Assembly (NCBI RefSeq): GCF_000807675.2
Contig: NZ_CP019962.1
Coordinates: forward strand, 1,860,001 to 1,924,000
DNA from: Eubacterium limosum
GTDB lineage: Bacteria > Bacillota > Clostridia > Eubacteriales > Eubacteriaceae
Reading direction: 5' to 3'
Length of the DNA: 64,000 bases
Shown: positions 10,560 to 58,591 of the stretch, piece after piece
Layout: each line of letters begins with the position of its first letter
How positions within the stretch are numbered: the first letter of the stretch is position 1
Translations under genes and position numbers: made by a program
Notes under the pieces: model-generated
Told to the model about the DNA's origin: nothing
Database searches by the model: none
Seen by the model: the letters and a program-made list of their open reading frames with translations, nothing else

Positions 10560-10588
10560 TTGACAAAGTAAGACCCCGGTGGTATATT
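10560..10588 (+). promoter_or_regulatory. SigA promoter of the hrcA operon
   Basis: A perfect TTGACA at 10560-10565 is followed, after 17 bases, by TATATT at 10583-10588. CIRCE begins 13 bases after the -10 box, so HrcA bound there would block transcription initiation or escape. Confidence 0.85.
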
Positions 10589-10600
10589 ATAGTCAAGATA

Positions 10601-10627
10601 TTAGCACTCACATGTAACGAGTGCTAA
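10601..10627. promoter_or_regulatory. CIRCE operator
   Basis: TTAGCACTC, nine bases, then GAGTGCTAA: a perfect match to the CIRCE consensus bound by the HrcA repressor. It is the only copy seen in the window and sits in the leader of hrcA-grpE-dnaK-dnaJ. Confidence 0.97.
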
Positions 10628-10643
10628 TAAAGAGGTGAATAAA

Positions 10644-26068: not shown

Positions 26069-26106
26069 AACAGATATAGAAGAGCCTCGGCTCTTCTATA
26101 TCTGTT
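26069..26106 (+). promoter_or_regulatory. 18-pair perfect intercistronic hairpin between livJ and livH
   Basis: Arms 26069-26086 and 26089-26106 are perfectly complementary around a two-base centre. No T-run follows, so it is more likely an mRNA-stabilising or attenuating structure that raises livJ relative to livHMGF than a complete terminator. Confidence 0.85.
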
Positions 26107-57649: not shown

Positions 57650-57686
57650 CAAAAGCCTGCCGAATTTAAGTTTGGCAGGCTTTTTA
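57650..57686. terminator. Bidirectional terminator between the RseC-like and amidotransferase genes
   Basis: AAAAGCCTGCC (57651-57661) and GGCAGGCTTTT (57674-57684) form an 11-pair stem with T-runs on both strands, matching convergent genes. Confidence 0.9.
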
Positions 57687-58460
57687 AATTACAAAGTTTC
57701 CCCGATCATGTTCTGGAAGCTTTGCGGGTTCAAACACGTGTCCATGGCTTTGTCCGGAATAGATTAGCTGGCTTCCCTTATAGGCAAAGAGGCGGGCCAT
57801 GGGCACCTTTTTCCAGAGATAACCATCTTGAGAAAGAGGATGGGTGGAAAAGCAGACATGACTGGATTTTTTAGAGGAGTACAGAGTGTCAATAATGTTT
57901 GTATGTATGTAATAAACCTCACCGTCATAGATGAGCAGGTTAAGCTTGTTGCGTTTGGCGATAGCGGCAATTTTCTCATCAAGCAAAGCTGCCCGATGTA
58001 CCGCATCCAGTGAACGGCCGGTATCGCTGATGGCTTTGCTCATGGCATCGGTCAGATAGAGAAGCACGCGCTCGCTGTCGGTTTCACCGGCCTGGGTATC
58101 CAGATAAGGAAGCAACTCCATACCGGAGTAGATATTACCATTGTGAGCCATCGTCCACTCCCGTCCACTGCTATCCCGGGTAGTAAAAGGATGGCTGTTG
58201 CTTTTGGCAATGGAACCGATGGTGGCAAAGCGAATGTGGGCAATGAGCACAGAGGTTTTGATGTCATGATTCAGCAGTTCTGGAAGCACCAGGCTGTCGT
58301 GCGCGCTGACAGCTTCTTTACACATGGAGTCTGTGCCGTCCTTGTTAAAATAGCGCATGCCCCATCCGTGAGGGTGCCTATGGCTGTGGGTGTAAAATTC
58401 TTTAAGCATGTCATTAGCACGTACGGGGCTGTCTCCGGTAATTCCATAGAGTTCACACAT
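57684..58460 (-). CDS. Class II glutamine amidotransferase (YafJ-like)
   Basis: This 258-residue protein starts MCELYGITGD, so Cys2 would be the N-terminal nucleophile after Met removal. It carries the class II motifs HRHPHGWGMRYF, IAHIRFATIGSIAKSNSHPFT and WTMAHNGNIYSG near residues 75-110, and later ETDSERVLLYL. It matches the YafJ/EgtC-like stand-alone family, so it hydrolyses glutamine or a gamma-glutamyl compound; the acceptor is unknown. The start is preceded by AAAGGA, a consensus promoter and an 18-bp perfect inverted repeat. Confidence 0.88.
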   Translation of the reverse strand: MCELYGITGDSPVRANDMLKEFYTHSHRHPHGWGMRYFNKDGTDSMCKEAVSAHDSLVLPELLNHDIKTSVLIAHIRFATIGSIAKSNSHPFTTRDSSGREWTMAHNGNIYSGMELLPYLDTQAGETDSERVLLYLTDAMSKAISDTGRSLDAVHRAALLDEKIAAIAKRNKLNLLIYDGEVYYIHTNIIDTLYSSKKSSHVCFSTHPLSQDGYLWKKVPMARLFAYKGSQLIYSGQSHGHVFEPAKLPEHDRGNFVI

Positions 58461-58476
58461 GGTATTGTCCTTTCTG

Positions 58477-58519
58477 AATACATATTAATCATATAAAATA
58501 AATATGATTAATATGTATT
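58477..58519. repeat. 18-bp perfect inverted repeat (operator candidate)
   Basis: Arms AATACATATTAATCATAT (58477-58494) and its exact complement (58502-58519) surround a seven-base centre. The repeat starts at the -10 box of the minus-strand promoter and spans the transcription start. Part of the right arm therefore lies upstream of the start, which favours a DNA-bound regulator over an RNA hairpin. Confidence 0.9.
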
Positions 58520-58545
58520 ATAGTATGAATGAATGGAAATGTCAA
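58517..58545 (-). promoter_or_regulatory. Consensus SigA promoter of the amidotransferase gene
   Basis: On the minus strand TTGACA (58545-58540) and TATAAT (58522-58517) are both perfect and lie exactly 17 bases apart. The start codon is about 50 bases after the expected +1. Confidence 0.88.
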
Positions 58546-58562: not shown

Positions 58563-58591
58563 GTAATAAAAAAGAGGCCGGAGCCTCTTAA
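58563..58591 (-). terminator. Terminator of the lipase-patatin operon
   Basis: Read on the minus strand, AAGAGGCT and GCCTCTT pair around CCG and run into TTTTTTATT. The lipase stop codon lies in the upstream edge of the stem. Confidence 0.8.

Follow-up and report, generated by a model that had tools for sequence, protein, structure and literature searches.

A sulfur regulator of the Rrf2 family has been described in Bacillus subtilis, where, according to PMC3828012, CymR acts together with CysK and responds to O-acetylserine. On the side of the enzymes, yeast Dug3 acts on gamma-glutamyl sulfur compounds. EgtC also acts on gamma-glutamyl sulfur compounds.

The locus considered here lies in a window of 64,000 nucleotides (the whole stretch of DNA that was analysed) of the Eubacterium limosum genome (4,422,837 bp, one contig). 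In it, the gene for a class II glutamine amidotransferase follows a consensus promoter that is overlapped by a perfect inverted repeat (Table 1). We consider it probable that this repeat is a compound operator of a sulfur (cysteine/methionine) regulon, that its likeliest binder is a CymR-like Rrf2 protein, and that it represses the amidotransferase gene by occlusion. The site was not found described in the titles and opening lines of abstracts on E. limosum or on clostridial CymR or Rrf2 operators, a literature in which our coverage of subscription journals is thin, and an earlier description is possible.

Table 1. Features of the amidotransferase locus, in window coordinates.
Feature	Position	Strand	Remarks
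-35 box TTGACA	58540..58545	-	sequence
-10 box TATAAT	58517..58522	-	17-nt spacer to the -35 box; 12/12 consensus
Likely transcription start, A	58509	-	8 nt past the -10 box; inferred from promoter rules in PMC5651825 (section 8)
Whole perfect inverted repeat	58477..58519	.	18-nt arms and 7-nt loop, 43 bp
Promoter-side operator register CATATTAATCATATTTA	58499..58515	-	25-bp matrix score 20.6
Central operator register CATAT-TTATTTT-ATATG	58490..58506	-	matrix score 28.6, first in 1.26 Mb
Distal operator register	58481..58497	-	score 16.9; decayed in G001 and G003
Shine-Dalgarno AAAGGA	58468..58473	-	7 nt ahead of ATG
Stand-alone class II glutamine amidotransferase, 258 aa, Cys2	57684..58460	-	GATase_4 profile match, sequence
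Terminator-like hairpin closing the upstream hydrolase gene	58572..58589	-	sequence

An ordinary promoter with an exceptional repeat

The exact TTGACA-17-TATAAT promoter that a sequence-only reading had placed on the minus strand was confirmed in all 12 bases. The same holds for the inverted repeat that it saw starting at the -10 box with two mismatch-free 18-base arms: the arms (58477-58494 and 58502-58519) are 18 nt each, 100% complementary and 7 nt apart, and on the minus strand the repeat takes in the final three bases of the -10 box and runs to 58477. Since the upstream same-strand hydrolase gene ends in a terminator-like hairpin, the repeat promoter is probably the amidotransferase's own.

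The two boxes represent the main promoter motif in a start-site study of E. limosum (PMC5651825), and the view that so strong a promoter is unusual did not survive a count. A 464-kb sample of the same genome, made up of the window and 20 spread 20-kb stretches, contains nine promoters that match consensus at 12/12 positions and 47 that match at 11-12/12. When these 47 were scored for a repeat after the -10 box, the amidotransferase promoter gave the highest value, 18, followed by 15, 11 and 10, and none of the other 46 has a comparable repeat. Folded as DNA, the repeat has a z of -6.8, and 0 of 200 shuffles were equally stable. Perfect inverted repeats with arms of at least 13 number 35 in the sample, many of them terminator-like by eye. 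In its own genome, the amidotransferase-promoter repeat is exceptional and the perfect promoter is ordinary. A further perfect 18-bp inverted repeat occurs in the window at 26069-26106, between genes that appear by eye to encode a binding protein of the branched-chain amino acid type and a permease.

Overlapping registers and their conservation

Four genomes of the genus were compared: E. limosum itself (G000) and three relatives, G001, G002 and G003, the last being E. callanderi. These are the four of the five genus genomes searched in which amidotransferase orthologues were found; none was found in the fifth, which is 80% complete. Between G000 and G002, at 80% protein identity, 1 of the 43 bases of the repeat is changed, against 6 of the 17 in the promoter spacer and 41.5% of third codon positions. 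G001 and G003 (90% identity) have TAAAAT as their -10 box, and beyond it arm 1 is changed at 1 of 15 positions, whereas arm 2 is changed at 6 and 7 of 18, respectively.

The decay of arm 2 in these two genomes, where arm 1 has been kept, indicates that the repeat itself is not the unit. Its bases can be read as three overlapping registers of CATAT-N7-ATATG set at 9-bp steps, with a predicted functional unit of 17-25 bp. The distance between the starts of the outer CATAT and ATATG is 12 bp in a single site, 21 bp at metY and 30 bp at the amidotransferase, that is, 12 + 9n. With the 25-bp matrix described below, the promoter-side register scores 20.6 in G000 and G002 and 20.7 in G001 and G003, while the central register drops to 12.7 in G001 and G003. 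Even with arm 2 decayed, both genomes thus retain a site that lies across the -10 box and the start. Conservation at orthologous promoters, which the sequence-only reading had made a touchstone of an operator role, is therefore of two kinds: an operator register is kept in 3/3 relatives, but the repeat survives as a palindrome in only 1/3. A striking perfect repeat can be several short operators that overlap, and this explains how an arm decays with the operator retained.

The start of transcription had been expected inside one arm, so that the full hairpin would not be transcribed. From the start given in Table 1, or from A58512 on the minus strand, which we would place second, the outer pairs do lie outside the transcript, but 8 or 13 of the 18 pairs would be in RNA. 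One might suppose, then, that the repeat acts in RNA, with the start inside arm 1 and a 5′-terminal mRNA hairpin slowing decay. In G000 and G002 such a transcript would carry a stem of 8 or 13 pairs at its 5′ end (-5.6 to -11.6 kcal/mol), and the change at the innermost pair in G002 keeps a G-U pair in RNA. However, the outer 5-10 pairs are matched in both of these genomes although they are untranscribed, G001 and G003 form a weak stem or none, the sequence is found again at other promoters, and folding the leader from 58510 into the gene gives a stability no greater than that of shuffled sequences (z -0.35). We find an RNA role very improbable on these grounds, and the fact that the symmetry extends into bases that the amidotransferase promoter cannot transcribe supports a DNA operator well; the 5′ stem could nevertheless add to mRNA stability. 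As for a riboswitch or T-box, the amidotransferase, cysK, metY, metN and Rrf2 loci of G000 gave 0 Rfam matches at the gathering threshold. Two sub-threshold Rfam matches were taken as chance.

A site common to sulfur-gene promoters

The proposal to look for the 43-bp element in related genomes and list the genes behind it brought no sibling promoters to light. With at most 2 mismatches and half-sites N11 apart, the full repeat has no second copy in its own genome, and no sibling was found in 40 relatives other than that genome; with 2-3 mismatches, scattered matches occur in 14 of 390 other genomes of the class. Two viral contigs with a similar repeat showed by eye no adjoining TTGACA/TATAAT pair and were judged chance. 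This scarcity of good copies would suit a private operator of an unknown regulator acting at the amidotransferase promoter alone, its likeness to sulfur promoters being accidental. Such a reading seems to us improbable, since it runs against a common site at the cysK, cystathionine lyase, metY, metN and Rrf2 promoters in 4/4 genomes and against the matrix ranks given below.

The shorter elements led to that common site. A 17-base arm, with at most 3 mismatches, matches 36 places in the E. limosum genome (two of them the arms themselves) against 21 for the reversed control, and one of these matches lies directly past the TTGACA-17-TATAAT of cysK. Arm matches at 321998, 1405055 and 4132686 were inspected and not used. 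Allowing one mismatch, CATATTAATCATAT matches the amidotransferase and cysK promoters in 4/4 genomes; its 19 places comprise 6 amidotransferase arms, 4 cysK sites and 9 others, and the other loci that were scored (9 loci) give 3.7-12.8 with the matrix. Among them is an arm-like sequence just before the start of a glutamate-dehydrogenase gene in three genomes (L129 at about 1500-1520, genome position 968345; L114; L120), with matrix scores of 9.9-10.6.

Comparison of these regions yields CATAT-N7-ATATG. Exact copies number 8, 6, 4 and 4 in G000 to G003, against 3, 4, 4 and 2 for the reversed pattern. Half of the eight in G000 are promoter sites: one upstream of cysK, at about -64, one past the -10 box of cysK, one past the -10 box of metNIQ and one at the amidotransferase. 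The remaining four are a terminator-like site, two sites inside long coding frames and one elsewhere; the exact copies at 716235, 2064579, 2098862 and 4219013 score 3.4-12.1 and were not counted as operators. At 716235 (L142 1501-1517; also L155 and L156), the palindrome ending in CATAT and ATATG is part of a terminator-like hairpin. By eye, the gene behind this hairpin is TusA-like and a LysR-type gene lies close by; the GC pairs that flank the palindrome vary between genomes.

Two more promoters, those of the divergent cystathionine lyase-patB unit and an Rrf2-family gene (genome position 293,718), have sites with 1-2 mismatches past their -10 boxes; the search of the E. limosum genome for one-mismatch sites covered positions up to 2.83 Mb. 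Directly past the -10 box of metY, the gene for O-acetylhomoserine sulfhydrylase, which is followed by a second cysK and the homoserine O-succinyltransferase gene (metA), there are two overlapping registers. The sites at cysK (two), cystathionine lyase-patB, metNIQ and the Rrf2 gene, exact or with 1-2 mismatches, are present in 4/4 genomes, and so is the metY site. For the Rrf2 gene and metY this conservation says little, because both promoter regions are nearly identical throughout the four genomes; the flanks of the cysK and metN sites vary among them. The metNIQ promoter region (L157 3929-4107) has a second TTGACA/TATAAT-like pair, placed after the operator and ahead of the metN start, and the operon may therefore have two promoters.

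A promoter-coupled pattern, TATANT followed within 14 nt by CATA-N9-TATG, occurs in G002 four times and no more, at the Rrf2 gene, metN, cysK and the amidotransferase. It picks out the same four in G000 together with two others; its matches in G001 and G003 are the Rrf2 gene, metN and cysK and two more per genome, one being the cysK site read in reverse. The matches at 4054264 and 4247230 (G000), 1157519 (G001) and C21:69721 (G003), scoring 9.5-11.3, were set aside. The pattern occurs 6, 5, 4 and 5 times in G000 to G003, against 2, 7, 2 and 1 for controls. As the bare and promoter-coupled counts are near those of the controls, it is the set of genes, with their functions, and the placement of the sites that carry the case.

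A symmetric 25-bp matrix was built from the cysK upstream, cysK -10, cystathionine lyase, metN and Rrf2 groups, with four genomes each, leaving out the amidotransferase site and metY. The centre of the amidotransferase repeat scores 28.6 in G000 and 25.4 in G002. When one group at a time was omitted, its G000 site beat all 399,520 background positions in every case; the weakest member of the matrix, the cystathionine lyase site of G002, scores 16.6, equal to the best background. Over 1,262,536 positions (61 pieces, of which the window, L211 and L214 were included for holding a known site), the amidotransferase is first at 28.6, followed by the Rrf2 gene (26.3), metY (25.4) and the promoter-side register of the amidotransferase (20.6). 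The best unrelated position scores 19.0; 14 positions reach 16, a score attained in this genome by about one position per 90,000. A piece picked for a third cysK-like gene (L229) holds nothing above 15.5. Since the site groups were selected by the pattern itself, these ranks are evidence of consistency more than of a discovery by an independent route. At genome positions 2831204-2831228 (L242 11204-11228), CATATTTATTTTATGTG shares 16 of 17 bases with the amidotransferase core and scores 16.1.

Beyond the genus, the 200 nt upstream of seven distant amidotransferases (36-45% identity) were scored with the same matrix. The highest value, 16.0, belongs to a 40%-identical protein from another genus (L029 in G023), where CATAT-CAGAAAA-CTATG lies 8 nt past the -10 box of TTGACA-17-TAAAAT. 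The second (L026 in G008), at 15.3, is a degenerate site, also past a TATAAT, and the other five of the seven showed no good site upstream (2.4-8.3). The L029 site appears notable, in a small test that uses the background rate of the E. limosum genome for genomes of different composition.

That the amidotransferase site is a DNA operator, as the sequence-only reading had it, is well supported by its recurrence at sulfur promoters, where its position with respect to the -10 box is mostly the same. What has to be revised is the unit, which would be the 17-25-bp site and not the 43-bp repeat.

Candidate regulator, enzyme and described systems

No regulator gene had been seen beside the promoter, and this holds for the adjoining genes; a candidate that shares the site is nevertheless encoded 1.6 Mb away. 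It is the Rrf2-family gene already mentioned, whose product has 148 aa and whose own promoter bears the site in 4/4 genomes. The protein matches PF02082 with 97.8 bits (cut-off 30), which places it in the Rrf2 family. CymR is its best NCBIfam family, but its 102.4 bits fall below the equivalog cut-off of 195, so we call it CymR-like and not CymR. Among solved structures its best match is 4cic, a BadM/Rrf2 regulator, and it also matches CymR (3t8r, E 5.5e-18; 2y75, 5.2e-17) and IscR. IscR has three Fe-S ligand cysteines; the four orthologues have 1, 1, 1 and 0 cysteines, and the protein therefore lacks the Fe-S triad. A paralogue beside iscS scores above the candidate for both CymR and IscR.

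The operator and the sulfur regulon could be just as described and yet be served by a different binder, for instance a sulfur regulator of the LysR type, with whose T-N11-A form the site agrees. The cysK upstream site occupies a frequent activator position. In other Firmicutes, sulfur genes are among the targets of LysR-type regulators (PMC2940859). On the other hand, the position of most sites is over the -10 box or the start, the promoter of the Rrf2 gene itself carries the site in 4/4 genomes, and none was found in the 200 nt before the paralogue beside iscS, where the best score is 8.4. We regard a different binder as unlikely.

Returning to the CymR-like Rrf2 protein as the likeliest regulator, one that apparently controls its own gene, we infer that it would bind CATAT-N7-ATATG as a dimer, with three overlapping registers available at 9-bp steps at the amidotransferase. 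Once bound, the protein would mask the start site together with the last part of the -10 box and so keep RNA polymerase off, and a sulfur signal would release it, so that the amidotransferase is made. At the amidotransferase, cysK, cystathionine lyase, metNIQ, metY and the Rrf2 gene alike, a site stands over the -10 box or just past it. This points to repression by occlusion, and a site in this place, common to related genes and a regulator gene, is the arrangement of a repressor operator. Against repression, the cysK upstream site would suit an activator.

The amidotransferase may serve sulfur salvage, for example by splitting gamma-glutamyl thiols as EgtC does. Its GATase_4 score (111.2 bits, cut-off 23) and its start, MC, with Cys2, identify it as a class II glutamine amidotransferase. 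On this reading the enzyme, of YafJ/EgtC type, is likely to act in sulfur salvage, and since EgtC and Dug3 both act on gamma-glutamyl sulfur compounds, such a role, inferred as it is, would be coherent under a sulfur regulator. This would give a YafJ-type amidotransferase without a known acceptor a testable role among cysteine and methionine genes, and the genus, a group of gut acetogens, gains a candidate for the master regulator of its sulfur metabolism. It is tempting to go further, although here we lean slightly towards doubt. In Eubacterium, the master regulator of sulfur metabolism might be an undescribed Rrf2 paralogue whose operators are extended in overlapping 9-bp registers, from a single one at metN and the Rrf2 gene to two at metY and three at the amidotransferase. 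Controlled by this paralogue, the amidotransferase might be the bacterial equivalent of Dug3/EgtC and release cysteine from gamma-glutamyl thiols, in a system reaching at least one neighbouring genus.

Three described systems can be set beside this locus. Within the same window, on the plus strand at 10560-10630, a CIRCE-like TTAGCACTC-N9-GAGTGCTAA, which we take to be the CIRCE site, lies past TTGACA-17-TATATT before hrcA, with a repeat score of 11, and serves as an example of where an established type of repressor site is placed. Like the amidotransferase operator, it is an inverted repeat just past the -10 box of a strong promoter. It differs in having 9-bp arms, a single register and another protein, and the amidotransferase repeat is unlike TTAGCACTC-N9-GAGTGCTAA in sequence. 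EgtC and Dug3 share with the amidotransferase the stand-alone class II glutaminase domain; the protein here scores 55.6 bits, below the EgtC equivalog cut-off of 218.65 (TIGR03442), and its best solved-structure match is the uncharacterised 1te5, followed by EgtC.

The CymR regulon of Bacillales is likened to the present system through the protein and its target genes, not through the operator sequence. In both, the regulator is an Rrf2-family protein that lacks the Fe-S triad, and the targets include cysK and genes of cystathionine/methionine conversion (for CymR, PMC3828012). The difference is that metNIQ, metY-metA and the amidotransferase would be targets here and that the protein falls below the CymR cut-off.
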